DNA of 54,244 bases from Acidocella sp. (GTDB lineage Bacteria > Pseudomonadota > Alphaproteobacteria > Acetobacterales > Acetobacteraceae). The number at the start of each line of letters is the position of its first letter. Positions within the stretch are counted from its first letter, which is position 1. Under the pieces are notes generated by a model that saw nothing but the letters and a program-made list of their open reading frames with translations, made no database searches and was not told where the DNA came from. Shown here in pieces: positions 3,147 to 53,632 of this stretch. The stretch spans positions 1 through 54,244 of the forward strand of contig JAMFRU010000003.1 in the NCBI GenBank assembly GCA_026224875.1, read 5' to 3'. The position numbers and the translations under genes were made by a program.

Positions 3147-3184
3147 CGTTACGGTTTCCTTACTTCGAAGACTTAGAAGAAGAC

Positions 3185-11632: not shown

Positions 11633-11856
11633 CCCCACTCGCGTTTTTCGTGCCGCACAGATGACATCGACATGCCTGCTGCCGCAATGCTCAGCCCATC
11701 GTGGCAGCGATACCTAATTAAGATGCTGGACCTTGGCTCCGTTGGTCAAAATCGCTCCGGCGATCCGGCCCGTTAAACCTCAGCAATCCTGCCACGGCGC
11801 AAAAAACAGAGACCCTGTCACTTTTCTATTGACTACCTTCTGAGCAAGGCAGATGG

Positions 11857-11869
11857 TGTACCCCATACA
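11857..11869. promoter_or_regulatory. TGTA-N5-TACA palindrome, candidate operator
   Basis: An inverted repeat TGTACCCCATACA lies 22 bases before the IclR start codon, in the divergent region between the IclR gene and the SDR/aldehyde dehydrogenase unit. It could be the IclR binding site. The repeat is short. Confidence 0.3.
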
Positions 11870-11890
11870 AAAGCCGGGGAGAAGACGGTT

Positions 11891-12694
11891 ATGGCCAATG
11901 CGCTTGAACCGAATAAAGCCAAAATCGCGAAACGTGTTATCGAAGTATTTGAATTTTTTGATGAAAATAACCAGCAGGCAACGGTGATGGATATTGTCCG
12001 CCGCTACGGCCGGCCGCAATCGAGCACCTCCGAGCTGCTCGCCACGCTGGTCGAGATGGGGTTGCTCTATAAGGATTCCCGCTCGCGCTATTATTCGCCT
12101 ACCCCACGCCTCGCGGCTTTGGGCATCTCGGCCCAGCCCGAGATCATCCGCAACGGCCATCTCTTCGCCTTCATGGACCGCCTGGCCCAGACCACCCGCA
12201 ACAGCGTGGCCCTGTTCGGCATGGTCGGCACAAATGTGCAAATTTTTCGGCTCTCGCCCGGCCCGGAGCCCAGCTTACGTGAGATAGGTTACGGCGCCTG
12301 CGAGCAGCTTTCCGCCAGCGCCGCCGGGCTATTGCTGCTCTCCACAATGCCGGCCGAGCAGGCCAGCCGCATCCTCTGGCGCCTTAACGCCGAAGCCCCG
12401 GCGGAGGAAAAATTCAACCCGGTGGAAACCCGCGAACATGTCGCCAGCCTGCGCCGCCAGGGCCACGCCATGGGCCAAGCCGGGTTCGTTGCCGGCGTGC
12501 AGATGGTCGCCACCCTGCTGCCCCGCGCCAGCACCGAACGCCCGCTCGCTCTGGGCATGATGTACCCAGCCGCCGCCACAATCGACACCGAGGCACTGCT
12601 CGCCACGATGAACCACGGCATCGCCCAATGCGGCGCGCAGGGCGAGGCGGTTTACCCCGCGACAGCAGCGGCGCCGTTTATGATGGCCGTTTGA
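11891..12694 (+). CDS. IclR-like transcriptional regulator
   Basis: This 267-residue protein has an N-terminal winged helix-turn-helix at about 10-75, with the pattern ATVMDIVRRYGRPQSSTSELLATLVEMGLLYKD (in part) ending in a short wing, RSRYYSPTPRLAALG. The C-terminal two thirds resemble an IclR effector domain, with LFAFMDRLAQTTRNSVALFG. The start has GGGGAG ten bases upstream. It is divergent from the SDR/aldehyde dehydrogenase pair and is the likely regulator of that pair or of itself. The N-terminal part is AT-richer than the rest. Confidence 0.82.
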   Translation: MANALEPNKAKIAKRVIEVFEFFDENNQQATVMDIVRRYGRPQSSTSELLATLVEMGLLYKDSRSRYYSPTPRLAALGISAQPEIIRNGHLFAFMDRLAQTTRNSVALFGMVGTNVQIFRLSPGPEPSLREIGYGACEQLSASAAGLLLLSTMPAEQASRILWRLNAEAPAEEKFNPVETREHVASLRRQGHAMGQAGFVAGVQMVATLLPRASTERPLALGMMYPAAATIDTEALLATMNHGIAQCGAQGEAVYPATAAAPFMMAV

Positions 12695-12709: not shown

Positions 12710-13756
12710 TTATACCTTCAATCTCTTCGCCATTTCCTTTGGATCCGGCATCGGGTAGCGGCCCATCTTGCCTGTGCTGAGCGAGCAGCAGGACATTTTG
12801 AGGCGTGTGAAATCCTCGTACCATTCGAGATCATCGGCGGAGATGCCGGTGACCTCGCGCCATAGCGCGATTGTTTCCTCGGCTGTGCCCATGCCGGTGA
12901 GGTAGGGGCGAGTTGGGGTGGCGGAGTGCCAGGCATCGGAGAGCACCAGCCACCAGGCGAGGTCGTGCAGTGCGCCGCCGAGCGAGGGCTGCTCCCAGTC
13001 CATTACCGCAACCACATCGAAGTTTTCGTCGAACATCATGTTGCCTAGCCGCGCATCGCCCCATACCAGGCCGGGCGGCTGGTTTTTCGGCCAGAGTTTT
13101 GCGAGCCGGTCCATGGCTTTGTTCAGCACGGGGGTAAAAGCCTCGCCGCCGGCCCAGGCGATGAAGCGCTGGTATTTATCCCATTCCTGCGGGAGCCCCT
13201 CGCGCGCATCGGGCTTTGTGCCGGCCAGAAACCCGAGCCCGCTACGCGGCACGGCCTGAATGGCGGCCAATTGGCGCACGCCGGCCTCCCACATGGTGGC
13301 GCGTTGCGCCGGTGTTGCCTCGGCTACCCAGCCGACATCGCGATAGGGCGGAATGCTGACGGGCACGCGGCCCCGCTTTTTCTCCATCACGAAGAAGGGC
13401 GCGCCCAGGAGATCGGAGGTTTCCTCCAGCCATAACGGCTCGGCCACCCGCACCCGCCCGTCCGCGTGTAGCAGGGACATCAGCCGGCGTTGCTCATCGA
13501 ACAATGTGTCGGGGAACACCAGCTGGCGGGTCGGCTTGATGCGCACCACGCAGCCGCGCTCATGGCGCGCGCCGGCAGCATGCCAGCTGACATCGAACAG
13601 GATGGTTTCATGAGATTGCCCGGCACCGCTTGGGTATTTGAGATTGCTGATGCGGATATCGCTGGCGCTCTCCAGCCGGGGTTGCAGCCATTCCGTTAGC
13701 TGGCGTGCCAGAATGTCGAGATCCCTCGTCTCAGGCGCTACGATCACATCGGACAT
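12710..13756 (-). CDS. Aminoglycoside-phosphotransferase-fold kinase-like protein
   Basis: This 348-residue APH/ACAD10-type phosphotransferase has the Brenner motif as WGDARLGNMMFD, in which the usual first histidine is replaced by Trp, followed by VVAVMDWEQPSLG carrying the metal-binding Asp. Homologues often sit beside acyl-CoA dehydrogenase and beta-oxidation genes and may phosphorylate hydroxyacyl substrates; the role here is inference. AAGGAG lies six bases before the ATG. Its promoter (13798-13826) overlaps the tandem operator described at 13772. A second phosphotransferase at 19043 carries a similar upstream operator. Confidence 0.86.
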   Translation of the reverse strand: MSDVIVAPETRDLDILARQLTEWLQPRLESASDIRISNLKYPSGAGQSHETILFDVSWHAAGARHERGCVVRIKPTRQLVFPDTLFDEQRRLMSLLHADGRVRVAEPLWLEETSDLLGAPFFVMEKKRGRVPVSIPPYRDVGWVAEATPAQRATMWEAGVRQLAAIQAVPRSGLGFLAGTKPDAREGLPQEWDKYQRFIAWAGGEAFTPVLNKAMDRLAKLWPKNQPPGLVWGDARLGNMMFDENFDVVAVMDWEQPSLGGALHDLAWWLVLSDAWHSATPTRPYLTGMGTAEETIALWREVTGISADDLEWYEDFTRLKMSCCSLSTGKMGRYPMPDPKEMAKRLKV

Positions 13757-13771
13757 TTTCGCTCCTTATTT

Positions 13772-13805
13772 TTCTAAATATCGAATTATTTTTCCGATAA
13801 ATAGG
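13772..13805. promoter_or_regulatory. Tandem operator A (TTCTAAATATCGAA type)
   Basis: TTCTAAATATCGAA at 13772-13785 is followed 20 bp further by the divergent copy TTCCGATAAATAGG at 13792-13805. The second copy covers the -10 box of the phosphotransferase promoter and the first covers the expected transcription start. This is the position expected of a repressor site. Confidence 0.6.
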
Positions 13806-13826
13806 TCAGAGCAATGCCCAAGTCAA
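13798..13826 (-). promoter_or_regulatory. Sigma-70-like promoter of the phosphotransferase gene
   Basis: On the minus strand TTGACT (13821-13826), 17 bases, then TATTTA (13798-13803). The start codon lies about 40 bases downstream, with AAGGAG between. Confidence 0.65.
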
Positions 13827-13840
13827 CGAAACAGCGCCAC

Positions 13841-14701
13841 TTAAGAGGGGGAGCGCGATTGGCCGGTGATAAAGGTGGAAATCCGCGCACAGGCGCTGGT
13901 TAAGCGCTGGGCGATGCGTTTGATCTCGGTACCTTGCGTTACGCCGGTAAAGCCCGACAGGCCGAGCACAAAGGCAATCTGCCCGCGTAACTCAAACACC
14001 GGGGCGATGATGCTGATGAGCGGGTAATCCACCCCATCCTCAAGCTTGGGCAGAAGAACCGCTGGAAATATCGAGCTTTCCTCACGGAACACCTGCTCCG
14101 GCGGCCGCTCGGCACCAACCGCGCGCGGGTTGCGGGTGTGCACCGAGTAACCATGTTCACGCAGAAAACGCATGCCCTGCAGCATGGATTCGCGATGCTC
14201 CGGCGTGGCCGGCGGTTCGGCCGCATCGAGCCAGGCCTTCGCCTCGGCTTCCGGCCGCCAGGCGTAAAAAATTGAGCCGAAGGGGGCGCGCAATTTGAGC
14301 CGCGCGCCGGTTGGGGTGGACCAGCCGACATGCGAGGCGGAGGCTGCCCGGTCGCGCACGACGATATCCTCGCCCTCGCGGAAATAGGCGGCGCAGAACA
14401 CGTCGAACTCATCGGCCAGCGCGCGCATCTCGGGCTGCGCTACCTGCAGTGGCGAGGCGTGCTGCAGCGCGATCCGGCCGATTGAGGCCAGGGACGGGCC
14501 GAGCATGTAATTCTTGTCGCTGGTGCGGTACAAATACCCCACATCCACCAGCCCAGTCAGCAAGGCATGGCATGTGGCGCGGCTCAGCCTCAGCGCCTTC
14601 ACCAGATCGGTCAGGGTGAACGCCTGACCAGGGTGATCGACGATAAAATTGAGGATAGCGGCCACGCGCTGGACGCCGGGAGAAGATCTTGCCATGCCCA
14701 T
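13841..14701 (-). CDS. IclR family transcriptional regulator
   Basis: This 286-residue IclR regulator has an N-terminal winged helix-turn-helix at about 8-70 (VQRVAAILNFI, then FTLTDLVKALRLSRATCHALLTGL and a wing, YLYRTSDKNYMLG) and a C-terminal effector domain (EMRALADEFDVFCAAYFREG and following). No ribosome binding site precedes ATG 14701 or ATG 14695. A copy of the recurring operator ends two bases before the ATG, and a promoter-like pair (14704-14732) would start transcription at about the second codon, so initiation may be leaderless from 14695. It is divergent from the CoA-transferase gene and is the best candidate for the regulator that reads the TTCTAAATATCGAA elements. Confidence 0.9.
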   Translation of the reverse strand: MGMARSSPGVQRVAAILNFIVDHPGQAFTLTDLVKALRLSRATCHALLTGLVDVGYLYRTSDKNYMLGPSLASIGRIALQHASPLQVAQPEMRALADEFDVFCAAYFREGEDIVVRDRAASASHVGWSTPTGARLKLRAPFGSIFYAWRPEAEAKAWLDAAEPPATPEHRESMLQGMRFLREHGYSVHTRNPRAVGAERPPEQVFREESSIFPAVLLPKLEDGVDYPLISIIAPVFELRGQIAFVLGLSGFTGVTQGTEIKRIAQRLTSACARISTFITGQSRSPS

Positions 14702-14702
14702 A

Positions 14703-14716
14703 TTCGATATTTCGAA
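14703..14716 (-). promoter_or_regulatory. Operator B at the IclR start codon
   Basis: On the minus strand it reads TTCGAAATATCGAA, one base different from TTCTAAATATCGAA of sites A and D. It overlaps the weak -10 box of the IclR gene and touches its start codon, a position suited to autoregulation. No second copy is seen 20 bp away. Confidence 0.55.
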
Positions 14717-14732
14717 TTGTGGCGGCGGTCAA
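14704..14732 (-). promoter_or_regulatory. Possible promoter of the IclR gene
   Basis: On the minus strand TTGACC (14727-14732), 17 bases, then TATCGA (14704-14709). The -10 match is weak. If used, the transcript would start within the first codons, giving a leaderless message. Confidence 0.4.
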
Positions 14733-14747
14733 TAGCGATGCTGAACC

Positions 14748-14790
14748 TTGACCAGGTTCGATATTGCGTTAAAAAAGTCGAAATAGAGAA
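14748..14790 (+). promoter_or_regulatory. Promoter and tandem operator C of the CoA-transferase gene
   Basis: TTGACC (14748-14753), 16 bases, then TAAAAA (14770-14775). Two operator copies in reverse orientation, 14757-14770 (TTCGATATTGCGTT) and 14777-14790 (GTCGAAATAGAGAA), are 20 bp apart. One fills the spacer and the other covers the start site. This is the same geometry as at site D. Confidence 0.55.
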
Positions 14791-14834
14791 TTTTAGGAAG
14801 GATCGTACCTTCCCAGCACGGAGGTCACGCGCTC

Positions 14835-16049
14835 ATGAACAGGCCGCTCGAAGGGATCAAAATTGTCGAGGTCGCCATGTGGGCTTTCGTGCCCGCCTGC
14901 GGCGGCATCCTCTCTGATATGGGGGCGGATGTGATCAAGATCGAACCGCCCACGGGCGACCCGCTGCGCGGCCTGCAAATTGGCGGCATGGCCACTAGCA
15001 ACCATGGTTTTGATCTCTCCTGGGAGAATTATAACCGCGGCAAGCGCAGCATCACGCTCGACCTCAAACAACCCGAAGGCGTGGCGGTGCTCTACAAGCT
15101 CCTTGCGGATGCGGATGTATTCCTCACCAACCTGCTCCCCGCCGCGCGGCAAAAAATGCGGATCGATGTGGAGGATATTCGCACCCAGTTCCCCAGCATT
15201 ATCTATGCGTTGGGCAGCGGGCTTGGCCGGCAGGGGCCGGAAGCCGCGAAAGGCGGGTATGATTCCATCACCTTCTGGGCTCGTGGCGGTGTTGCCTCCT
15301 CTATTACCCCGGAGGATGAGGAGTTCCCCTACGGCCAGCCGGGTGCTGCCTTCGGCGATTGCGCCAGTGCGGCGATGCTGGCCGGCGGCGTGGCCGCCGC
15401 CCTTGCCCAGCGGGCCATGACGGGCAAGGCCTCGGTGGTTGATGTCTCGCTGCTCGGCGCCAGCATGTGGCTGCTCCAGCGCGGCATCACCCAGGCCACG
15501 ATCGACAATGTTGCCCGCCTGCCCCGGCCCCGGCGCGATGAAGTCTCCAACCCGCTGGTGAACACCTACCGCACCAGCGACGGGCGGCATGTGGCACTCT
15601 GCATGTTGCAGGGACAGCGCTACTGGGCAGGTTTCTGCGAGGCTGCGGGTGCGGACGATCTCGCCGCCGATCCGCGCTTCACCACCGCGGCCTTGCGCGC
15701 CAAAAACATCACCGCCTGCACCGCCGCACTGGATTCTCTGTTCGCCGGCAAAACCCTTAGCTCATGGCGCGGCATTCTGGCCCGGCAGGAAGGCCAATGG
15801 GATGCCGTGCAGCATGTCGGCGAGCTGAAGGATGACGGCCAGGTGCTGGCCAATCATTATCTCCAACCCGTGGAGCACGGTGACGGCCGCCGGCTCGACA
15901 TGGTGAGTGTGCCCATGCAGTTCGACGGCACGGCTTTGCCCTCTCGCCCCGCACCCGCGCTGGGGGCGGATAGCGAGGCGATATTGACCAGCCTGGGGTA
16001 TGACGAGCAGGGTATTATTGATCTTAAGATCGCTGGGGTGGTTTTTTAG
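14835..16049 (+). CDS. Family III CoA-transferase (CaiB/BaiF type)
   Basis: This 404-residue CoA-transferase transfers CoA between acyl-CoA and a free acid through an aspartyl-CoA thioester. The N-terminal signature ADVIKIEPPTGDPLRG (31-46), the segment ENYNRGKRSITLDLK (64-78) and the candidate nucleophile Asp175 in AFGDCASAA are all present. Length is normal. GGAGG precedes the ATG at somewhat long spacing. It is divergent from the IclR gene and driven by a promoter carrying two copies of the shared operator. It probably activates the pathway acid to its CoA ester. A second, broken CoA-transferase lies at 25242. Confidence 0.92.
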   Translation: MNRPLEGIKIVEVAMWAFVPACGGILSDMGADVIKIEPPTGDPLRGLQIGGMATSNHGFDLSWENYNRGKRSITLDLKQPEGVAVLYKLLADADVFLTNLLPAARQKMRIDVEDIRTQFPSIIYALGSGLGRQGPEAAKGGYDSITFWARGGVASSITPEDEEFPYGQPGAAFGDCASAAMLAGGVAAALAQRAMTGKASVVDVSLLGASMWLLQRGITQATIDNVARLPRPRRDEVSNPLVNTYRTSDGRHVALCMLQGQRYWAGFCEAAGADDLAADPRFTTAALRAKNITACTAALDSLFAGKTLSSWRGILARQEGQWDAVQHVGELKDDGQVLANHYLQPVEHGDGRRLDMVSVPMQFDGTALPSRPAPALGADSEAILTSLGYDEQGIIDLKIAGVVF

Positions 16050-16073
16050 TAAAAAAAGCAGCGCAAAAAACTT

Positions 16074-17276
16074 TTAACTTACAGAAAACACACGCTGGGC
16101 GCGGCCGCCTACGATCTCTCTGATCTCTTCTGCCGGCACGCCCGCGAAATCGCGCGCGATGACCTCATGTGAGTTGGGGAAACTTGTTTCGGAATGCGGG
16201 TAGTCGGATGACCACATGATGTTCTTGCCACCCGGCTCGTTACGGCACATCACGCCGATGCGGTCGTTGATGAAGGAGCCGTAGATATTCTGGTCCATGT
16301 AGAAACTCGGCGGCTGGGTCAGCACACTCTCCGTCCAGTAACGCTGCTTTTCCCACACGCGGTCCATATATTCCGCCATCCAGGCAAACCAGCCCACGCC
16401 GCTTTCCGCACTCACAAAGCGCAGTTTGGGAAAACGCTGGAACACGCCGCCATAAATCAGAATGTTCACCGGCTCCGCCATCGCCAGTTTGCTCATCGAC
16501 ATATCGGGCAGAAAATGTTTTTTCTCACCGAAGCGCGGCACGCGGCCACCTAGATGAATGGTGACCGTGAGATCGAGATCGCTGATTTCCGCCCAGAGCC
16601 GGTCGAATTCCGGGTCCGCGTAGCTTCTGTCGGAGGAGGGATTACCGGTGAGTGCCGCCCCCTGCCCCGCCGTAATGGCCGCTACCCGCGCCGTGGTGGT
16701 CACGCCATCGCTCTCCTGCGGGAAGGCCGGGATGTTGACGTTGCGGAAACCGAGTGCGGCGGCATTGCGCAGCAAACCTAAAGTCTCGTCGATATCGCGC
16801 ATCGGCAGATAGGCGACACCGGCCAGGCGCTTGCGGTCGGCAGCGCAAAAATCATGCAGCCAGCGATTATACGCCTCGAAACTGGCAATATAGAGCTCGC
16901 TGTTCATGGTGCCGAGCGGCCCGCCGCCGTAGATTACCGCGGCATCAATGCCATCGTGATCCATATCGGCCAGGCGCTGCGCCGGTAGCCAGGCTTCCCG
17001 CATTTCCGACAATTTGCCGGTCATTTTGAAATCTTTGCCCGCCCTTCCGGCCTGATTGCCGATCATCCGCAGGGGGCGTTTTTTTCCTTCGAAGACGATC
17101 CAGTCATGCTCCTCCCCGGGCTCGATGTAAGGGGCGAGCTCGCGCAGATGCGCGGGTAGATATTCGCGCCACATGTCATGCGGCGGGTCGAGATGCGCAT
17201 CGGCATCGATCAAGCGAAGGCCTGCCGGAAGTTTCAATCCGGGCCGCGCTGCGAGCGAAATATCATCGGGCGCCAT
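16074..17276 (-). CDS. PF04909-type amidohydrolase, paralogue
   Basis: This 400-residue metal-dependent hydrolase of the amidohydrolase-2 family has the N-terminal metal motif as LIDADAHLDPPHD (about 22-34) and the C-terminal signature SSDYPHSETSFPNS. It shares architecture with the protein at 6881-8194, so the two may act on successive or alternative intermediates. AGGAGG gives a well-supported start. It converges on the CoA-transferase gene with only 24 bases between. Its promoter carries operator D. Confidence 0.88.
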   Translation of the reverse strand: MAPDDISLAARPGLKLPAGLRLIDADAHLDPPHDMWREYLPAHLRELAPYIEPGEEHDWIVFEGKKRPLRMIGNQAGRAGKDFKMTGKLSEMREAWLPAQRLADMDHDGIDAAVIYGGGPLGTMNSELYIASFEAYNRWLHDFCAADRKRLAGVAYLPMRDIDETLGLLRNAAALGFRNVNIPAFPQESDGVTTTARVAAITAGQGAALTGNPSSDRSYADPEFDRLWAEISDLDLTVTIHLGGRVPRFGEKKHFLPDMSMSKLAMAEPVNILIYGGVFQRFPKLRFVSAESGVGWFAWMAEYMDRVWEKQRYWTESVLTQPPSFYMDQNIYGSFINDRIGVMCRNEPGGKNIMWSSDYPHSETSFPNSHEVIARDFAGVPAEEIREIVGGRAQRVFSVS

Positions 17277-17300
17277 AGTTTCCTCCTATGAGTTCATATA

Positions 17301-17344
17301 TTCTAAATATCGAACTATTTTATCTAATTACGAACAAAAGTCAA
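17301..17344 (-). promoter_or_regulatory. Promoter and tandem operator D of the amidohydrolase gene
   Basis: On the minus strand TTGACT (17339-17344), 16 bases, then TAAAAT (17317-17322). Plus-strand copies TTCTAAATATCGAAC (17301-17315) and TCTAATTACGAAC (17323-17335) have their CGAAC cores exactly 20 bp apart, one in the spacer and one at the start site. Confidence 0.65.
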
Positions 17345-17386
17345 GGTCGCTGCCGGGGCGCCCTCGTGGACAAGCCGGTTTAAATT

Positions 17387-17396
17387 CGTATATACG
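17387..17396. promoter_or_regulatory. CGTATATACG palindrome upstream of the acyl-CoA ligase
   Basis: A perfect 10-bp palindrome lies in an AT-rich stretch 88 bases before the ligase start codon. It may be part of its promoter or a separate operator. No clear -35/-10 pair was found. Confidence 0.3.
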
Positions 17397-17483
17397 ACGA
17401 TTAATACGTTATTTAAGAACAACGCGAGGCATGTATTTGGCCTTCGCCAGCAGGCGCGATAGGTTAGAATACGAGGCAAAAAA

Positions 17484-19046
17484 ATGTCCGAAGGGAGCGA
17501 CTTTACGGTGAATAAACCCGACGAGCTGGCGCGCGATACAGCTGCCGCCCATAATTTTCCGCAGTTGCTCCGCGCCGCCGCCGCAACTTATGGCGGCGCT
17601 ACCGCCATAACGATTGCAGGCGACACCATCCCCGATGAGGCGCTGAGTTTCATCGCACTCGAACGGCAATCGGCTACGCTCGCCCGGGGCCTGCTGGCGC
17701 GCGGCGTGGGCAAAGGTACGCGGGTTGGTTTTATCTACGGCAATAGCCCTTCATTTGCGCTGATGCTGGCCGCCATCTCCCGCATTGGCGGTATTGCCGT
17801 GCCGATCAGCACGCTCATTAAAGCCAACGAGCTGGTGCGGGTGCTGCGCCAATCCGACATCACCGGTCTGATTGTGCAACGAAAACTGCTCGGCCATGAT
17901 TATAGCGAGCGGCTGTGCGACGCTTTGCCCGCGCTGCGCGAAGTGACCACTCCTGAATTACGGCTTACAAAAATACCTTATCTGCGCTGGATTGTTTCCA
18001 CCGGCGACGCTCTTCCGCCCAGCTTCCACAGCATGAATTTTCTGCTCGATGCGGCCGGCAGCGTGAGCGAGGATATGCTTGAGGAGGTCGAAGCCGAAAT
18101 CCATCCCACTGACCAGATGCTGGAGATTTACACCTCGGGCTCCATGGCGCTGCCGAAAGGCGTAAAGCATACGCATGGCGCGGTGCTGGCACGCACGCAT
18201 TACCTTAAAACCAAGCTCTCCGTCAGCCGTGGCCAGGACGTTCCCGTGCCGCTGCCGATGTTCTGGGTGGGCGGGCTGATGATGTATCTGCTGCCCAACC
18301 TTGAAATCGGTGCGGTAACGCAATGTACAGAAGGCACCTCCACCAGCAGCCGTTTCGCCATGGGCACGGTGATGGCCGTGGATGATATGGCGGCGATGCA
18401 GAAAATGCCCACCATCTGGGGCCTCGGCATGACTGAAACCCTTGGGCCGTATTCGCATGCCGATGTTTTGCGCGACCCGCGCTACCCGCTTTGCGCGCCG
18501 CTCGACCATATTGCCGAGGGGTTCGAGGTGCGGGTGGCGGATGCGGATGGAAAACCCGTTGGCGAAGGCGAGCGCGGCGAGATTCAGATCCGCGGCTATG
18601 CCCTCACACCTGGCCTGCATAAGCTGGAAAAACTGGATTATTTCACGCCAGATGGCTTCTACCACACCGGGGATATGGGCGTGGTCGAAGGCACACGCAT
18701 TCTTTTCACCGGGCGCGATGGCGATATGATCAAGACCGCCAATTCCAACGTCTCACCCGCCGAAGTGGAGATGGAGCTGCAACAATTCCCCGGCGTGCAT
18801 TCCGCCTATGTGGTGGGGCTGCCTGACCATGACAGGGGCCAAATTGTTGTTGCCGCTTTGGTGCCGCGCGATGGGGCGGTGCTGGATATGGATGCCATAC
18901 AGGCGAAACTCCGCAAATCCCTATCAAGTTTCAAAGTGCCGCGCGCGTATGTTGCCATAACGCGCGAGGAGGTGCCGATGCTGCCCAGCAATAAAGTTTC
19001 TCGCCGCCAGCTGGAGCGGTTTCTTGCGGAAAAACTCGGGCGTTAA
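17484..19046 (+). CDS. Atypical AMP-binding acyl-CoA ligase
   Basis: This 520-residue protein of the adenylate-forming family should make an acyl-adenylate and then the CoA thioester. The phosphate loop is divergent: YTSGSMALPKG at 216-226 instead of YTSGTTGxPKG. The distance to the next core motif, GLGMTE near 313, is about 100 residues, some 30-50 shorter than in typical ligases such as the A domain at 27489. The later motifs YHTGDMG, GRDGDMIKT and the catalytic lysine in PSNK (Lys504) are intact. It may be a naturally compact subfamily rather than a damaged gene. The start at ATG 17484 has GAGG upstream; GTG 17508 is an alternative with AAGGGAG. Its stop overlaps the stop of the convergent phosphotransferase. 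Confidence 0.88.
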   Translation: MSEGSDFTVNKPDELARDTAAAHNFPQLLRAAAATYGGATAITIAGDTIPDEALSFIALERQSATLARGLLARGVGKGTRVGFIYGNSPSFALMLAAISRIGGIAVPISTLIKANELVRVLRQSDITGLIVQRKLLGHDYSERLCDALPALREVTTPELRLTKIPYLRWIVSTGDALPPSFHSMNFLLDAAGSVSEDMLEEVEAEIHPTDQMLEIYTSGSMALPKGVKHTHGAVLARTHYLKTKLSVSRGQDVPVPLPMFWVGGLMMYLLPNLEIGAVTQCTEGTSTSSRFAMGTVMAVDDMAAMQKMPTIWGLGMTETLGPYSHADVLRDPRYPLCAPLDHIAEGFEVRVADADGKPVGEGERGEIQIRGYALTPGLHKLEKLDYFTPDGFYHTGDMGVVEGTRILFTGRDGDMIKTANSNVSPAEVEMELQQFPGVHSAYVVGLPDHDRGQIVVAALVPRDGAVLDMDAIQAKLRKSLSSFKVPRAYVAITREEVPMLPSNKVSRRQLERFLAEKLGR

Positions 19047-20074
19047 ACCCCGAGCAGGGCAAAACTATTGTGGCGCGTAACCGCGTTGCCCAGCCGATTG
19101 ACGAATAAATTCGTGATCGCCGGGTCCACGCGCCGCGTGATCGACCAGAGATAATAGCCATAGACCAAAGCCGCGCGATACGCCGCCCATGCCTCCTCTT
19201 CCGCCGGCACCTCAGCACCAAGCCGCTGCATATCGGCGTGATAATGCGCGAGCAAGGCGCGCTCCTCGCGCTCGGCGACATCCACCGGCAGCACGGCGGT
19301 AATGTGATAGGCCACATCCAGCGCCCAGCCGCCCCGCTGCAATAACTGCCAGTCGATCAGCCCGGGCCCCGCCGCCGTGCGGTAGATGTTCCCGGCGTGG
19401 CTATCGCCGTGGATTAAATATTGCGGGCCGGCGGCGTCACGCTCGGCCAGCACGGCCAATGCCTGCAGCAGCAGCGCTGCATCTTTGGTGCGGTCCGGCA
19501 GGCCCTCGCCGCGCTTGCCGTGCAGCATTTCCTGCAGCATGGGCAGCGGCACATAGGCATTGCGGACAAAATCGCTGAGCCTGGGTTTTATCCAGGGGCT
19601 GCTTGCCAGCAGGCCACTGCCGGCGTGCAGTTGCGCCAGCAGGCCGAGGCTGGCCGCGGCCTCATCCGCGCTGAACGGGTCCAGCGCGCTGCAGAATTTT
19701 GCCCCATCCGCGATCAGATCGCGCATGATGACGACGGCGCCCGGCGCCGCGCGGTCGATGACCGTGGCCACGCGTTCCGGCCGCCGCAACGGCAGATGCG
19801 GCGCCAGTTTGTCGTAGAAATCCGCCTCCAGAACGTTCACCGCGCCGCCGCGCGCCATTTGCTCGTCGACATCGAGGAACCCTTTCAGGCAGAGCGCGGC
19901 ATGGCCTCCTTCATAGGCAACGGTGAACCGCACCTTGGTTGCCACGGTGCGGATTACCTCCACCGTCTCCACGGCGGTTACCGCGGCGCCGCCAGTAAGA
20001 GGCGCCAGCGCATGGCTCAGCCACGCTGGATCGAGCGCCTGTGTCAGGGTTTGCGGTATTGGCGGATGCGTCAT
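19043..20074 (-). CDS. Aminoglycoside-phosphotransferase-fold kinase-like protein
   Basis: This 343-residue APH-fold protein has the full Brenner motif HGDSHAGN, followed by GLIDWQLL with the second metal-binding Asp. It is distinct from the paralogue at 12710 but probably has a related role in the island, perhaps phosphorylating a hydroxylated intermediate; that is inference. The start at 20074 is chosen because the domain begins there and CGGGGAA lies upstream; an in-frame extension to 20257 runs through the operator region and is unlikely. The stop codons of this gene and of the convergent ligase share the four bases TTAA at 19043-19046. Confidence 0.85.
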   Translation of the reverse strand: MTHPPIPQTLTQALDPAWLSHALAPLTGGAAVTAVETVEVIRTVATKVRFTVAYEGGHAALCLKGFLDVDEQMARGGAVNVLEADFYDKLAPHLPLRRPERVATVIDRAAPGAVVIMRDLIADGAKFCSALDPFSADEAAASLGLLAQLHAGSGLLASSPWIKPRLSDFVRNAYVPLPMLQEMLHGKRGEGLPDRTKDAALLLQALAVLAERDAAGPQYLIHGDSHAGNIYRTAAGPGLIDWQLLQRGGWALDVAYHITAVLPVDVAEREERALLAHYHADMQRLGAEVPAEEEAWAAYRAALVYGYYLWSITRRVDPAITNLFVNRLGNAVTRHNSFALLGV

Positions 20075-20176
20075 GGTGTTCCCCGGATTTTTCGCCCGGA
20101 CGCGGCGCCCGGGGCATTTTCTCGTCGCGTTCCGGGCATAGGGATAACCAGCCGTGCCGTGGCGGGCAAGGGTATT

Positions 20177-20210
20177 TTCTAAATACAGAATAATAATTCT
20201 AAAATCTTCA
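20177..20210. promoter_or_regulatory. Tandem operator E upstream of the second phosphotransferase
   Basis: TTCTAAATACAGAA (20177-20190) and TTCTAAAATC (from 20197) start 20 bp apart, about 100 bases upstream of the start codon at 20074. The match to sites A-D is weaker and I did not find a convincing promoter pair here. Confidence 0.45.
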
Positions 20211-27218: not shown

Positions 27219-27488
27219 TGGCTGGAGACCCCGCCACGGCGGGCTGAAGCTGGCGCTTCGCCTGCGTTGGCCGGGCGAGATGCCGGCGAGCCGGGTAAAC
27301 TGCGGATGAACGCGGCCTCGGACCGTTAGCCTGCGCGCGTTCCCATCTCGACGAGCTTCAATTCACCAGCCATGCGCAGTCCAAGTAAAACAAGTAATCA
27401 GTTGCTTGATTTAAAGCGTGCTTTGTCTCATAATTTCGCCGGCGGCGATCCAGAACCCAAAATAACCGGCGCCGCGATGGAGGACACC
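27219..27488. other. Leader region of the carboxylic acid reductase gene
   Basis: These 270 bases include a short GC hairpin (CCCGCC-A-CGGCGGG near 27228-27243) and the promoter at 27406. An open frame in line with the reductase extends back to 27372 but would start before the promoter, so I regard it as non-coding. Confidence 0.5.
27406..27434 (+). promoter_or_regulatory. Sigma-70-like promoter of the carboxylic acid reductase gene
   Basis: TTGATT (27406-27411), 17 bases, then CATAAT (27429-27434). This predicts a start near 27441 and a leader of about 48 bases to the ATG at 27489. Confidence 0.7.
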
Positions 27489-30400
27489 ATGGATAGCGTT
27501 GCGGTACCGGCACCCCAGAAAGCCCAGCTGTTCACAGGCGGCGGCGCCACGGATTGGGCAAAAGCGCGGCTGGAACAATTGAAGGCCGGAGACGCACAGT
27601 TCACGGCAGCACTCCCCAACGCCACGGTTACCCAGGCCAAGCAGCAGCCCGGCTTGCGTCTGGCGGAGGTCATCCAGATCGTCATGGAGGGCTATGCCGG
27701 CCGGCCCGCGATTGGGGCGCGGGCCCGCGAGCTGGTGACCGACCCGGTGAGCGGCCGCACCTCCTCGCGGCTGCTCAACCGCTTCGAAACTCGCAGCTTT
27801 GGCGAATTATGGGCACAAATCCGCGCCACCGCCGGAGACTGGCACCACCATCCGCAGCACCCGGTGCAGCCTGGCGCGTTCATCACCATTCTCGGCTTTG
27901 CCAGCCCGGATTATGCCGCGATGGCCCTGGCCGCCGTGCATCTGGGCGCGGTCAACGTGCCGCTGCAGGCCACCGCACCGGCGGCGCAGCATGCCGCCAT
28001 CATGGCCGAGACCGAACCGTGTTTGCTTGCCACCAGCATCGAATATCTCGACCTGGCGGTGGAGGCGGTGCTGGCCGGCACACCGCCGCCCCGCCTGATC
28101 GTGTTCGATTACGAGCCGCGCGACGATGCCCAGCGCGAAAAACTGGAGGTGGCACGGCAGCGCCTGGCGGGCTGCCCGATCATTGTCGATGCCTTGCCGG
28201 ACGTGCTTGCGCGGGGCGCAAACCTGACACCGCCGCTGCATGTTTCGGATGATCCGGACCCGCTGGCCTGGCTGTTCTATACCTCCGGCACCACCGGCAC
28301 GCCCAAAGGGGCGATGATCACGGAGCAGACCATCCGCAACACCTGGCTCTATGCCGCGGAAAAACCCTCGATCACCCTCAGCTTCATGCCGATGAGCCAT
28401 ATGGTCGGCTATGGCTACATGTTTTTGGCCCTGGCCAATGGCGGCACGAGCTATTGTTCGCCCCGGAGCGACCTTTCCACGCTGTTCGAGGACCTGGCGC
28501 TAGTGCGTCCCACCATGGCCTCGCTGGTGCCGCGTATCTGCGAGATGCTGTACCAGCATTATCTGGGCGAGGTTGACCGCCGCATCGCCGCCGGCGCCCA
28601 AGAGGCCGCGGCACAGGAAGATGTGAAGCTGGAGATGCGCGAAACCCTACTCGGCGGGCGGCTGCTGTCCGTCGGCTGCGGCTCGGCGGTGCTCTCGCCC
28701 GAAGTGCATCAGTTCATGCTCTCCATGCTCGGGGTGCATATGGCCATCGGCTATTCCTCCACCGAAATGGCCACCGCCACGGTGCTGGTCGATGGCAAAA
28801 TCCAGCGCCCGCCGGTGATCGATTATCGCCTCGCCGACGTGCCTGAGCTCGGCTATTTCACCACCGACAAGCCCTTTCCGCGCGGCGAATTCCTGGTGAA
28901 AATTCCAAAATTCATGGATGGCTATTACAAGCGCCCGGAACTCACCGCGGAAAAATTCACCGAAGACGGATTTTACCGTTCCGGCGATGTTATGGCGTTG
29001 GTGGATGAGGACAGGCTCGTCTATCTCGACCGCACGAACAATGTGCAAAAACTCAGCCAGGGCGAATTCGTCGCCATTGCCCGGCTTGAGGCGATGTACA
29101 CGCAGAGCCAGGCGATCCGGCAGATATATGTTTATGGCAGCAGCGACCGCGCCTTTTTGCTTGCCGTGGTGGTGCCGGCCGAGGAACTGGCCGAGATGGG
29201 CGAAGACCGGGCCCGCGCGGCGATCCGCCGGGGGCTGAACGAGGTTGCCGGGGAGCATGGGCTCAACAGCTACGAGATCCCGCGCGAATTCCTGATCGAG
29301 ACCGCGCCCTTCAGCCCGGAAAACGGCCTGCTCACGGGCATCGGCAAATTCAGCCGCCCGAATTTCAAAGCGCGTTATGGCGAGAGGCTGGAGCAGCTCT
29401 ATGCGCAGATTGCGCAGGACCAGGTAAGCGAGCTGCGCGCGCTGCGGCTGGGCGGCACGGACCGTCCGGCGATCGAAACAATTGCCCGGGCGGTGCAGGC
29501 GACCCTGGGCGTGGCGGCGGTGGATATTACCCCTGGCGCGCGCTTTGGCGATCTGGGCGGGGATTCACTCTCGGCTTTGTCTTTCTCGATGCTGCTTGAG
29601 GAGATTTTTGGCGTCGAGGTTCCGGTTGGCGTGATCATCAATCCGGCGGGTGACCTAGCGCTGATCGCCGGCTACATCGAGGCGCAGCGTGCGGGGGCAA
29701 GCCGCCCAAGTTTTTCCACCGTGCATTCAGCTGACAGCAGTACGGTATATGCCAGCGATCTGAGCCTCGAAAAATTCATCTCCCCGGAAATTCTTGGCCT
29801 CGCCTCGCATTTGCCCGCGCCGGCGGAGACGATCAACACCGTGCTGCTCACCGGCTCGACCGGCTTTCTCGGCCGCTTCCAGGCCCTCGCCTGGCTGGAG
29901 CGCATGGCGGCGACCGGCGGCAAATTGGTGCTCATCGCCCGTGGCGCCAATCCTGAGCAGGCCCGCCAGCGCGTGGAAGAGGCACTGCAAAGCGATCCCG
30001 CGCTGCTGGCGCATTTCCGGGCCCTGGCGGCGGAGCATCTGGAGGTAGTGCCGGGTGATCTCGGCCTGCCCAGCCTCGGCCTCGATGACGCCACATGGGC
30101 GCGGCTTGCGGAATCTGTCGATCTCATCGCCCACACGGCGGCGCATGTGAACCATGTGCTGCCCTATACGCAATTGTTCACCGCCAATGTAGCCGGCACG
30201 GCGGAGCTGGTGCGCCTGGCGCTGACGAGCCGCCGCAAACATTTCGATTACGTCTCCACCTTGGGCGTGATCGCGCTGGCCGGGGGCTCCGTGGACGAGG
30301 ATTGCGATATCCGCAAAATCATCCCCTCCTGCGAGATCAATGATGGTTACGCCAACGGTTATAACATCAGCAAATGGGCGGGCGAGGTGCTGCTGCGCGA

Positions 30401-31007
30401 GGCACACGATCTGTGCAACCTGCCGGTCAGCATCTTCCGCCCGGGCATGATTCTCGCCCATAGACGCTACGCCGGCCAGCTCAACGTGCCGGACATGTTC
30501 ACCCGCATGATCTACAGCCTGGCGGTTACGGGTGTTGCCCCGGCGACCTTCTATGCCGAGGATTTGTCGAATGGCCGGCCTGTGTCGCGCTATGAAGGCA
30601 TCGCGGTCGATTTCCTCGCTGATTCCATCACCGCGATCGGTCTCAACAACAAATCGGGTTTCCACGCCTATAACCTCGCCAATCCGCGGGACGATGGTGT
30701 GTCGCTCGACAGTTTCGTGGACTGGATGATCGAGGCCGGCTGTAACATCGAGCGGATCGACAGCTACGGCAAATGGCTGGCGCGCTTCGAGACGGCGATG
30801 CATGCGCTGCCCGAGAAGAAGCGGCAGCAGTCGATGCTCGCCATCATGGGGCCCTACCGGCAGCCGCAGCATGCCGTGGCAAAATCCTTCCTGCCGGTTG
30901 AGCGTTTCCGTTCGGCCGCCGAAGCTGCCGGGCACCCGATTCCCCAGCTTTCAAATGCGCTGATCCATAAATATGTCGCTGACCTTCGGCATCTCGAATG
31001 GTTGTAG
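27489..31007 (+). CDS. car: Carboxylic acid reductase (A-PCP-R multidomain)
   Basis: This 1172-residue enzyme reduces a carboxylic acid to an aldehyde using ATP and NADPH. The adenylation domain (about 1-600) has FYTSGTTGTPKGAM from about 263 and GYSSTEMA near 420. The carrier domain has the phosphopantetheine site LGGDSLSAL with Ser693. The thioester reductase domain has LLTGSTGFLG near 785-794 and active-site Tyr958/Lys962 (YNISK). The length equals that of the known Nocardia and Mycobacterium enzymes. The start at 27489 has GGAGG five bases upstream and fits the promoter at 27406. It needs a phosphopantetheinyl transferase, which is not in the window. Together with the aldehyde dehydrogenase and SDRs it could interconvert acid, aldehyde and alcohol. 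Confidence 0.93.
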   Translation: MDSVAVPAPQKAQLFTGGGATDWAKARLEQLKAGDAQFTAALPNATVTQAKQQPGLRLAEVIQIVMEGYAGRPAIGARARELVTDPVSGRTSSRLLNRFETRSFGELWAQIRATAGDWHHHPQHPVQPGAFITILGFASPDYAAMALAAVHLGAVNVPLQATAPAAQHAAIMAETEPCLLATSIEYLDLAVEAVLAGTPPPRLIVFDYEPRDDAQREKLEVARQRLAGCPIIVDALPDVLARGANLTPPLHVSDDPDPLAWLFYTSGTTGTPKGAMITEQTIRNTWLYAAEKPSITLSFMPMSHMVGYGYMFLALANGGTSYCSPRSDLSTLFEDLALVRPTMASLVPRICEMLYQHYLGEVDRRIAAGAQEAAAQEDVKLEMRETLLGGRLLSVGCGSAVLSPEVHQFMLSMLGVHMAIGYSSTEMATATVLVDGKIQRPPVIDYRLADVPELGYFTTDKPFPRGEFLVKIPKFMDGYYKRPELTAEKFTEDGFYRSGDVMALVDEDRLVYLDRTNNVQKLSQGEFVAIARLEAMYTQSQAIRQIYVYGSSDRAFLLAVVVPAEELAEMGEDRARAAIRRGLNEVAGEHGLNSYEIPREFLIETAPFSPENGLLTGIGKFSRPNFKARYGERLEQLYAQIAQDQVSELRALRLGGTDRPAIETIARAVQATLGVAAVDITPGARFGDLGGDSLSALSFSMLLEEIFGVEVPVGVIINPAGDLALIAGYIEAQRAGASRPSFSTVHSADSSTVYASDLSLEKFISPEILGLASHLPAPAETINTVLLTGSTGFLGRFQALAWLERMAATGGKLVLIARGANPEQARQRVEEALQSDPALLAHFRALAAEHLEVVPGDLGLPSLGLDDATWARLAESVDLIAHTAAHVNHVLPYTQLFTANVAGTAELVRLALTSRRKHFDYVSTLGVIALAGGSVDEDCDIRKIIPSCEINDGYANGYNISKWAGEVLLREAHDLCNLPVSIFRPGMILAHRRYAGQLNVPDMFTRMIYSLAVTGVAPATFYAEDLSNGRPVSRYEGIAVDFLADSITAIGLNNKSGFHAYNLANPRDDGVSLDSFVDWMIEAGCNIERIDSYGKWLARFETAMHALPEKKRQQSMLAIMGPYRQPQHAVAKSFLPVERFRSAAEAAGHPIPQLSNALIHKYVADLRHLEWL

Positions 31008-39788: not shown

Positions 39789-39951
39789 GGGGTCACGCTG
39801 CTCGAGCATGGTGCCCGCACGCCGTGAGCGTTAACAATGCGCTGCTTCACGAATGGGCCGCCCGTGGATTCCGTCGACGAATATGGTGTTGAGAGCCTGT
39901 GACAGCGGCAGGCGGAGCGCTTATTGCAGAACGCCGGCGGTTCGGTTATGT

Positions 39952-42900
39952 ATGGGAAATAATCCCGTTATATCAAGGCACAGCTTGCGCTCTCAGATCG
40001 CGATCATGTTTTCCGTGGCGGCATTATGCGCCTTGCTGCCCGGCGTGCCGGCCGGGGCGGAAAGCAGCTGCAAGCCCGATGCCGCCTGTGCCGGCGCCGC
40101 TCCCGTGCCGATGCTGGCGCAGACTGTTTTTCCGGCCACCGGCACGCATGAGACGATCATCACCATCCCCAGTTTTGGCCGTTATGCCATTGCGGTGTCC
40201 AGCGCCCAGGGCACGGCTTTGCAGCTGGTCGACCGCATGGCGGGCCCCGGCAATGTTTCCGGCGCGCCCGGGGCACAGGATGGCAGGATTGATGCGTTTC
40301 TGGAGCGCGGCACGTATAAGCTCCGCCTGATTTCCGATGCGCGCGGTACGGGCAAAGCCACGGTCTCGGTGGTAAAATTCACCGAGTTGCAGGGCGCGCC
40401 GGTGCAGCTCGTCGAGGACAAGCCGGTCATCGCCGATCTGGGCGATGGGCAGCAGCGCAGCTGGTGGATCGTGGTCAAGGCGCGCGGCACTTATAATTTC
40501 GAGGCCGGCGGGCGCTATCTGAACGAGCTGCGCCTGTGGCAGCCGGGGTCATGGATGGTGAATGCCACACCGGTTGTGGCGGAGGCGGATGGTAATCCGG
40601 ACCAGCCTTTGGCTTTGCGCCAGCTGGTGGCGCAGCTTGAGCCCGGCATATATCAACTCTCCGCCTATGGCGGGCCCGGCCTGCCCTGGGCGCAGAATTC
40701 CAAGGCGGCACCGTTCATGCTGCGCTGGGGCGTGCCGGGTTTGAGCGATGCCGGGCGCAGCCTGCATCAGGCGTCCATACTGGGGATCGACAGGTTTCTG
40801 GTGCCGGGCACCGCGACAACGCTGCGGCTGGTGCTCGACAAAGCCGAGCCCGCCACGGTCGCGGCGCAGCCCTATGATCCCGCCTCGATGTTCGACCAGA
40901 GCCAGGCCAATGTAGCAACGATCGACAAGCACAGCCGCGACCCGGTGGCCGAGCTGGACCTGCCGGCGACCAACAACGCCGTGCCCTGGCTGGTGACGGT
41001 GACGCGCCAGCCCGGCGCGCCCTACCGGCTGGAAGTCCTCAATGCCGGGGGGGCTCAGACCACGCTCAGCCTGGACCACGGCAATACACTGCTCGCCGTG
41101 ACCCTCCCTGGCGACGCGGATGACGAGATCGACCCCGGTTTCCTGCTGATCCAAAATGACAGCCAGAAAATGGTGGCCTCTTCGGCGATCGATCTCGACA
41201 CCGCTCTGCCCTGGCGCCGCCGTTTCAACCTGCTCGATACGGCTCAGACCTTTCTCCATACCAGCAAGCCCGTAAACCTGGTGGTCAGCGGCAGCGGCGC
41301 GCCGGCGCAATTCGTTGTTGACCGCTTCATGATCAACGCGCCCGATGAACGCCATATCCCGGACCCGAAACCCTCGGGCGGGGTGTGGACGCTCACACCC
41401 GGCTATTACGTGCTCTCGGCTTTGCCGCAAACGAACGGGCACGGCGTGTTGACGATGTCGATGACCGTGCAAGACGGCCCGGCCCCCAGCATCGACAGCT
41501 CGCGTTTGCCGGCGGCCTTGTTCGAGGATCTCAGCGTCAACGCGCCGGATGAGGAGCTGGGCGCAGCCAATATCAGCGAAACGGGCGAAAGCCCGTGGTC
41601 TTTCACCCTCATCTCCTCCCGCGGCGACGGTGCAAATTTTGGCCTGCGCCAAATGGACTTACCGGCAACGCTAGCACAGCCGCTCAGCTTCGAGCTCGGG
41701 GCTGGCCAGGTGATGAACATCCCCATCAGCATTGCCGCGGATGGGCAGCTGGCCGTTACCGGCGAGGATGGCGCCGGGCTCGGCTTCACCCTCGATGGCA
41801 AAGTCGTGTCAGGCACGATGATGCTTCATCGGGGCCAGTATGAGTTCGCGATGACCGGGCCGAAGACGGGCGCGCGCCTGGTCAACCTCGCCGAAACCCC
41901 GGCCAGTTTGCTGCCCGCCACGGCTTTGCCTGTACTGGCGCCGGCACAGATCGCCCCCGCGGCTCTGCCGCCCGTGCGCCCTGGCCGGCCGGATTTCCTC
42001 GATTTCGCGCAGGGGCAAAACGTTAATTTTGCACTGCCGGTTGACCATGACGCTTTGTACCGGTTCGAGACCACCGGCCTGCTGGAAACCGGCGGGACGA
42101 TCCGCACGCATATCAACCCGTCACTGGGCACTGCCGAAGGTAACGGCACAGGGCGCAATTTTCTACTCCAGATGTTTTTGCGCGAGGGTGATTATCAGCT
42201 CGCCGTGCAGTCCCAGGGGCAAACCGCGGGCCATGCCGGCGTGGCACTCACGGAAACGCCGCTGCTCGATGAGGGTGTGCTGGCGCCGGGCAACCCGGCG
42301 CGCATCACGCTGGAGCCGGGCCAGGCAGCGCTCTATCATTTTCATATCGCGGCCCAGGGCATTTATCACCTGTTCACCCTCGGCCTCGGCCATAGTTTCA
42401 ACATGCGGCTTGAGGATGCGGACGGCTGGCCATTGCTCGCCCCCGGCGGTGCCGCGGATGCACAGCTCGATCTGGCACCGGGCGATTACCGCATGATCCT
42501 GCTGCCAGGTCTGGTGGAAAACCGCGCCGTGACCATGCTGCAGCAGATTTTGCCACCGCCAGTCTACGCCGGGCATGGGCCGTTCCAGGTCGCGTTCGGC
42601 CAGGATATGCAAAACCGCTGGATGGAGCCGGCGCCGGGCGCCAAACGCGTGCCGGATATCTGGAGTTTCGACCTGCCGGCCGCCGCAACGGTGACGGTGA
42701 CAATCAATGCCGGCATGCGGGCGCAGGTTTTCGGCGCTGTGCCGGGTGCTGCCGCCTTCGGCACGACTGACGGCGGGAGCTGGACGGGCAGGCTTGCCGC
42801 CGGTGCCTATGCCATCGCCACCATGAGTGCGGCGCAGAACAACCGTGTCGATTACACGCTCAATGTCAGCCTGAAAGACCTCATCCCCGGCCAGAGCGAA

Positions 42901-45159: not shown

Positions 45160-45160
45160 G

Positions 45161-51217: not shown

Positions 51218-51232
51218 GGGAGTCTTCTTTTT

Positions 51233-53398: not shown

Positions 53399-53632
53399 AG
53401 CGCAAAGTATCAAATTGTTACGCATTTTTGGTTTAACGAATGCCGGCCGGCTGCACACTGGGCTGGCTGGGGGACTGACGGGGGGACGACGCCAAGAGCG
53501 TCAGCAAACGTTACAATTTCCTCATTGCCAAGATCCTCTGGAGCGGTCATTTTGTTTGTTTTGACGCGCGGCTTCGGGCTTAACCGGGGTGCTCGCGTCA
53601 TTTTTCGAAATATAAAATAAGGGGAAGACTTC

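Follow-up and report, generated by a model that had tools for sequence, protein, structure and literature searches.

Whether a short element that recurs between genes is a regulatory site, and which protein would read it, is the question raised by a 54,244-nucleotide stretch of Acidocella sp. DNA (contig JAMFRU010000003.1, assembly GCA_026224875.1), referred to here at its full length as the window. The initial annotation had placed a 14-base element in four intergenic regions, in tandem copies 20 bp apart that overlapped promoters, with a single copy at 14703, and had grouped two phosphotransferases, an amidohydrolase, a CoA-transferase and an IclR gene into one regulon. From the analysis described below, the element is very probably bound as an operator by the IclR-family protein of the gene at 13841-14695, most likely the repressor of a catabolic regulon and of its own gene. 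The element, its positions, its conservation before orthologous genes and its link to the IclR gene were read from sequence.

The element and its occurrence in the genome

The element is a 14-bp palindrome, TTC-N8-GAA around AAATAT, with one occurrence ahead of the IclR gene besides those in the four intergenic regions named. Read in the direction of the regulated gene, the primary site is TTCGATATTTAGAA at 13772 and 17301, TTCTGTATTTAGAA at 20177 and GTCGAAATAGAGAA at 14777, and the site at 14703, in the sense of the IclR gene, reads TTCGAAATATCGAA. At up to three mismatches to TTCTAAATATCGAA, nine strand-matches at seven places were counted in the window against 1.09 expected, and none of 100 shuffles reached nine. 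The element is present at all of the positions originally given. The sites at 14757 and 14777, each with four mismatches to the 14-mer of the initial annotation, fall outside the set with up to three mismatches and were accepted because they are conserved and matched by a profile. Over 26 primary sites the 14-mer is preceded by A in 23 and followed by T in 19, so that the full element is nearer 16 bp, and the consensus of the strong palindrome, as read from these sites, is A-TTCGAAATATCGAA-T.

Random scatter over the genome, raised beforehand as a counter-possibility, was not what the scans returned. In the organism's own genome (3.87 Mb, 145 contigs, 95% complete), 10 places lie within two mismatches of the 14-mer, four in the window and six elsewhere (reversed control pattern, five), and all three places with zero or one mismatch are in the window. 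An out-of-sample profile, R1, with 34 columns was built from 14 sites of relatives, with no window sites and with IclR operators left out. The own-genome scan with R1 (E<=10, 150 of 455 first-look candidates scored) gave six matches, five of which are window operators (E 9.3e-4, 0.10, 0.11, 1.7 and 2.4). The sixth, on contig 14 (E 1.0), is a tandem operator, ATCACAATATCGAT-6-TTCGCGATATAGAA, with the promoter TTGACA-18-TATGTA; the gene behind it is 70% identical over 146 residues to a PF04075 gene (F420H(2)-dependent quinone reductase family) that follows a cytochrome P450 gene on contig L022 of a relative. A second scoring matrix, used for the phosphotransferase 1, second-IclR and Sphingobium scans, includes window sites, so that window scores from it are in-sample.

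Two further elements in the window were set aside. One at 53604 scored 16.8 with the right arm absent and is not an R1 match, and was not counted; by eye, 53604-53617 (TTCGAAATATAAAA) is a half palindrome about 15-20 bp before the ATG of a signal-peptide-like stretch. The other, at 3156 before a DUF1329 gene, scored 12.9, and no counterpart was visible by eye at the orthologue on L022.

The features are given below. Leave-family-out scores were obtained with matrices in which each site was scored without its own gene family, over 21 primary sites and five target families.

11891-12694: second IclR-family protein
12710..13756, minus strand: APH-family phosphotransferase 1, proposed regulon member (Pfam APH 3.9e-24)
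13772..13785, minus strand: predicted primary operator of phosphotransferase 1; 0 mismatches, site before each of the five orthologues at or above 70% identity, the own one among them
13792..13805, minus strand: very degenerate upstream copy, phosphotransferase 1; weak, leave-family-out score -16.6
13798-13803 and 13821-13826: proposed phosphotransferase 1 promoter, -10-like TATTTA (overlapped by the upstream copy) and -35 TTGACT
13841..14695, minus strand: IclR-family regulator, proposed repressor; Pfam IclR_C 1.3e-10 (41.6 bits, cut-off 24) and HTH_IclR 3.3e-8 (33.6 bits, cut-off 22), both domains above the curated cut-offs
14703..14716, minus strand: single near-perfect predicted operator TTCGAAATATCGAA before IclR; 14-mer identical before IclR in four of four genomes
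14704-14709 and 14727-14732: IclR promoter, proposed -10 TATCGA (covered by the operator) and -35 TTGACC
14748-14753 and 14770-14775: proposed CoA-transferase promoter, -35 TTGACC and -10-like TAAAAA just before the primary operator
14757..14770, plus strand: degenerate upstream copy in the promoter spacer, 20 bp from 14777; leave-family-out score 8.5
14777..14790, plus strand: predicted primary operator at the CoA-transferase promoter; block conserved in four of four intergenic regions, R1 E 9.3e-4, best own-genome match
14835..16049, plus strand: family III CoA-transferase, proposed regulon member (Pfam CoA_transf_3 4.7e-89); 77-80% orthologues adjoin IclR in L020-L022
16074..17276, minus strand: Amidohydrolase-2 family protein, proposed regulon member (Pfam Amidohydro_2 1.3e-22)
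17301..17314, minus strand: predicted primary operator of the amidohydrolase; 0 mismatches, conserved before orthologues
17317-17322 and 17339-17344: proposed amidohydrolase promoter, -10 TAAAAT (2 nt before the primary operator) and -35 TTGACT
17321..17334, minus strand: degenerate upstream copy in the amidohydrolase promoter spacer; leave-family-out score 5.0
17484..19046, plus strand: acyl-CoA synthetase, divergent from the amidohydrolase (Pfam AMP-binding 5e-42); perhaps in the regulon, with an operator centred 176 bp upstream and none shown to be its own
19043..20074, minus strand: APH/EcKL-family phosphotransferase 2, proposed regulon member (Pfam EcKL 6.1e-11, APH 6.3e-11)
20177..20190, minus strand: predicted primary operator of phosphotransferase 2, centre -109 from the ATG; 2 mismatches, R1 E 2.4
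20197..20210, minus strand: degenerate upstream copy, phosphotransferase 2; leave-family-out score -2.1

The gene annotated as IclR at 13841-14701 is an IclR-family gene; its start is probably 14695, because MARSSPGV there begins the protein of contig L020 and is contained in those of L021 and L022.

Conservation in the genus and assignment to a regulator

Among 38 genomes of the same genus, an IclR orthologue was found in four (own included), the other three being 77-81% identical and located on contigs L020, L021 and L022. The 14-mer just before the IclR start is identical in all four, and the region between IclR and the CoA-transferase holds two conserved blocks in these genomes, one being the IclR operator and the other the CoA-transferase operator together with the -10-like hexamer; around IclR the flanks diverge while the element stays conserved. 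Exact matches to TTCKAWATATCGAA numbered 12 in the 38 genomes (reversed control, one), and 11 of them precede regulon genes: IclR (four), phosphotransferase 1 (two), the amidohydrolase (two) and, in the interval they share, phosphotransferase 2 and a divergent P450 gene (three, of which G018 supplies two on a pair of contigs 94% identical to each other). The remaining match, in G028 (contig L024), lies within long open frames and was judged to be chance. The motif occurs in four of four genomes with the IclR orthologue versus two of 34 without it (Fisher p=2e-4, species relatedness not corrected for).

The element was kept before orthologues of the individual targets as well, as had been asked of a true regulon. 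For phosphotransferase 1, a site precedes all five orthologues at or above 70% identity, four of the five sites being also in the scoring matrix, and it is absent upstream of two homologues (53-57%) in G028, a genome without the first IclR. An exact site precedes the 84% amidohydrolase orthologue in L021 and another site a partial 80% orthologue in L051. Phosphotransferase 2 orthologues of 72-73% identity carry it in L030, L031 and L032 (two genomes). The 77% P450 orthologue in G013, whose match contains one stop, has a tandem site too. In the own genome a P450 orthologue was not found, the best homologue being 54% identical, and the homologues of 54% and 42% identity had no good site, their best locus scores being 4.7 and 9.7. 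Near the P450 genes it was also observed that a further operator-like element (L022:94-127, score 12.8 at 94) lies close to the end of the contig and 80 bp away from the P450 operator copy at 174, and that in G018 and G021 the operator of the divergent phosphotransferase 2 is 83 bp from that of the P450.

Over the genus, R1 gave 27 matches at E<=0.5: 14 training sites, nine others at regulon genes and four without a homologue of a searched gene. The nine comprise three window sites, two IclR operators, the L051 amidohydrolase, the L057 site before a 70% phosphotransferase 1 orthologue, and two overlaps with training sites on the other strand. The four (G023, G012 twice and G027; E 0.2-0.5) had no homologue of the 23 searched window genes and were dropped. 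This distribution bears on the suggestion that the element, instead of being a regulator site, is a dispersed repeat or an AT-rich feature common to promoters. The sites do overlap AT-rich promoters, and the promoters of the second IclR gene also have TTGAC -35-like elements; yet genus matches lie mainly before one gene set (exact, 11 of 12; R1, 23 of 27), the element is absent from the second-IclR promoters (none of 10), and around IclR it is conserved while the flanks are not. Such a feature or repeat is therefore regarded as most improbable, and the regulon of two phosphotransferases, amidohydrolase, CoA-transferase and IclR is supported at the level of sequence.

The operator was assigned to the IclR protein at 13841 because it stands before that protein's own gene, within its promoter, in four of four genomes, versus none of 10 homologues of the second IclR (11891), and because a similar site adjoins a homologue in Sphingobium. 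Upstream of the 10 second-IclR homologues (four at 82-100% identity, six at 57-68%), the element was absent within 130 bp, the best score being 1.5. On the Sphingobium plasmid, a 43%-identical IclR is separated by 146 bp from an annotated amidohydrolase, and TTTGAAATATCGAA in this interval has the best score in 40.8 kb; shuffling the stretch 20000 times gave 17.0 or more twice. The segments taken here as recognition helices, by the position of that helix in the family structure, read RATCHALL in IclR 13841, GATCHSLL in Sphingobium, and NGSAHR or TGSAHR in same-genus paralogues.

Presence or absence of the two IclR genes across genomes does not separate them, and here the assignment meets evidence against it. 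The second IclR is found, at more than 80% identity, in G000, G013, G018 and G021, and its presence gives the same Fisher p; its orthologues occur in four of the five genomes with operators before target genes (own counted). In one of these, G018, target genes are preceded by operators at six places, and the first IclR was not detected. Two pairs of the six are on near-duplicate contigs, and the absence is tentatively put down to an incomplete assembly (82% complete, about 400 contigs). Ownership of the operator by this second protein of the same cluster is nevertheless judged very unlikely: besides its own promoters lacking the element, the gene was not found in G033 (86% complete), which has operators at four promoters (IclR, CoA-transferase, phosphotransferase 1 and P450), and the Sphingobium site adjoins a homologue of the first IclR. 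By eye, the second-IclR promoter region (window 11761-11890; L083, L084, L085) has its own conserved TTGACTA and a block around GTGTGC/GTGTACC...ACAAAAGCCGG; this region differs from the operator studied here and perhaps holds the second IclR's own site.

Tandem copies, promoters and proposed mechanism

The mean leave-family-out score 20 bp upstream of the 21 primary sites was 0.2, the best offset after 0, while other offsets beyond 6 bp averaged -20.2 (sd 4.6, best -6.8); letter shuffles averaged -17.0 (sd 1.7), and none of 2000 reached the mean at -20. The same peak was obtained with 18 target sites in six groups. Upstream copies scored above zero at 12 of 21 sites, and at two of the four in the window (17321 and 14757). 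The tandem arrangement at 20 bp, with centres in the 18-22 nt range, is accordingly real as a trend, in which a strong site is paired with a degenerate one. Since the scores of the upstream copies vary, the design is one strong site and a tolerated weak one.

Of the 22 target sites, 18 have a TTGAC -35 nearby, and the best -10 hexamer for each of these lies at 15-19 bp (three to six of six letters). At 14 of 22, the -35 starts 29-31 bp upstream of the primary site and the hexamer stops 1-2 bp short of that site, a register in which TTGAC occurs at 0.3% of random window positions. As originally reported, three of the four tandem sites in the window have a TTGAC -35 with a -10-like hexamer, TTGACT-17-TATTTA, TTGACC-16-TAAAAA and TTGACT-16-TAAAAT. 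In four of five genomes the -35 of phosphotransferase 1 is displaced upstream by another 10-15 bp. The proposed IclR promoter, TTGAC[CG]-17-TATCGA, has the operator over its -10 in four of four genomes; TATCGA matches three of six letters, and for the window copy the automatic scan preferred a 19-bp spacing at equal score. Because only 5-8 bases separate this -10 from the ATG, the IclR mRNA may be leaderless.

With the primary site over the expected transcription start and the weak copy in the spacer, the geometry is that of a repressor. We infer DNA binding, repression, a tetramer and an inducer, as follows. One dimer would bind the strong palindrome just downstream of the -10 at the amidohydrolase, CoA-transferase, P450 and reductase promoters; at IclR the strong palindrome would be bound over the -10, and at phosphotransferase 1 the upstream copy would overlap it. 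The degenerate copy, two turns of the helix upstream in the promoter spacer and on the same DNA face, could take a second dimer. A tetramer on both copies would block RNA polymerase, and a pathway metabolite, perhaps an acid or a CoA thioester, would release IclR from the operator.

Several results weigh against this proposal. Four of the five window R1 matches span only 16-29 of 34 positions, with single E-values of 0.1-2.4; the matches carry weight because five of the six fall in one 54-kb contig. The amidohydrolase homologue on L022 (56%) has no site. Upstream copies score below zero at nine of 21 target sites, and none was seen at the IclR operators, for which -20 is not among the six best offsets and the operator is single. 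In simulations, three of 60 sequences of 40.8 kb reached 17.1 somewhere, like the Sphingobium score. Lastly, no -35 was found at the phosphotransferase 2 promoters (none of four), and at 20177 no -10 either; the missing -35 would suit an activator or dual regulator, types included in the IclR family (PMC8222616, in excerpt). The position of 14 of 22 primary sites 1-2 bp after a -10-like hexamer, with a TTGAC -35 in register, speaks against that, as a protein bound there is expected to block polymerase. Activation or dual control is considered unlikely, with a somewhat better chance than ownership by the second IclR, and plain repression by IclR 13841 is retained.

Relation to known systems and meaning

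The operator had not been recognised as a described one, and no description of its sequence, of the regulon or of the gene combination was found in the open-licence literature; its type is standard, being a group-1 IclR palindrome whose tandem sites are spaced by about two turns of the helix. In the available excerpt of Suvorova and Gelfand (2021, PMC8222616), tandem palindromes with centres 18-22 nt apart are given for 94 orthologous groups and as typical of IclR-family operators, the motif of group-1 subgroup iv is NGTYCRAW4TYGRACN, and sites are most often centred at -22 relative to the start codon (-22.5 at phosphotransferase 1 here). The majority consensus TTCGAAATATCGAA fits the inner TYCRA-W4-TYGRA, and the IclR site is the only one among 16 distinct primary 14-mers to agree with it letter by letter; the outer G...C of the subgroup is not kept, a G preceding the core at two of 26 sites and a C following at four of 26.

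The same excerpt connects two-turn spacing with binding as a tetramer and names TtgV of Pseudomonas putida (structure 2XRO), an IclR-family protein that controls efflux pumps, as the example. The IclR protein studied here (P0001) matches 2xrn/2xro by sequence (E 4.5e-5); its targets, in contrast, are catabolic genes, and the likeness is set by protein and spacing. The best NCBIfam match of P0001 is PcaU/PobR/PcaR (TIGR02431) at 63.7 bits, far below the subfamily cut-off of 284.75. PcaR and PcaU motifs contain TCGATWATCG (PMC8222616 Table 1, in excerpt), whereas the present motif is TCGAAATATCGA, and the targets here were not matched to beta-ketoadipate enzymes in the Pfam scan. Two further sources, PMC13273656 (PheR) and PMC10653915 (Sphingobium), decided nothing here in the parts available.

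Same-genus IclR paralogues (about 26-31% identical) likewise have tandem palindromes beside their own genes, with TTCCAATATTGGAA-like arms 21 bp apart, unlike the operator of IclR 13841:

L015:2463: tandem site of a paralogue
L016:1195-1229: tandem site of a paralogue
L017:1401-1435: tandem site of a paralogue
L019:2438-2472: tandem site of a paralogue

Further afield, no IclR match besides the own protein was returned at E 1e-45 in a class sample (385 genomes) or at 1e-40 in phylum (398) and family (397) samples; this is weak evidence of rarity, because the samples overlap, score at most six candidates per genome and miss the three known genus orthologues. A named-genome scan returned those three and one short 42% match, and among 53 plasmid records the best match was 43%.

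The remaining window genes include short-chain and aldehyde dehydrogenases, a MaoC hydratase, a thiolase-like protein, DUF1302 and DUF1329 proteins and a P450, a content that suggests a catabolic island. At 27372-31007 a 1211-residue protein with AMP-binding, phosphopantetheine and reductase domains, a layout that we take to be that of carboxylic acid reductases, is followed by a luciferase-like monooxygenase and a P450. Within 39853-53398 a bacterial alpha-2-macroglobulin-like protein (2057 residues) precedes a transglycosylase/transpeptidase penicillin-binding protein and is itself preceded by a 1768-residue open reading frame without a Pfam match at 1e-5.

The regulon joins enzymes that would not be linked by gene neighbourhood alone and so points to one substrate. 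The enzymes proposed are an acyl-CoA synthetase, the family III CoA-transferase, the amidohydrolase, a P450, the F420H(2)-dependent reductase and the two APH-type kinases. Phosphorylation of 4-hydroxyacyl-CoA is carried out by the kinases LvaA and ACAD10/11 (PMC11342911, in excerpt), and a similar role for the two APH proteins is possible by analogy, as a lead only. Tentatively, then, the operators may mark an undescribed catabolic pathway spread over several loci, in which the two kinases perhaps phosphorylate hydroxyacyl-CoA intermediates, and which a single IclR would govern through a graded tandem operator of one strong and one weak site, with one 14-bp site governing both the IclR promoter and the start of an mRNA beginning at or near the ATG. 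As the paralogues of the same genus have TTCC arms versus mostly TTCG or TTCT here, the system lends itself to testing IclR specificity. Although these bacteria are known here from genome assemblies only, a likely regulator, its operator and a target set were obtained from sequence alone, with a target on another contig predicted by the R1 profile and the P450 added by relatives.

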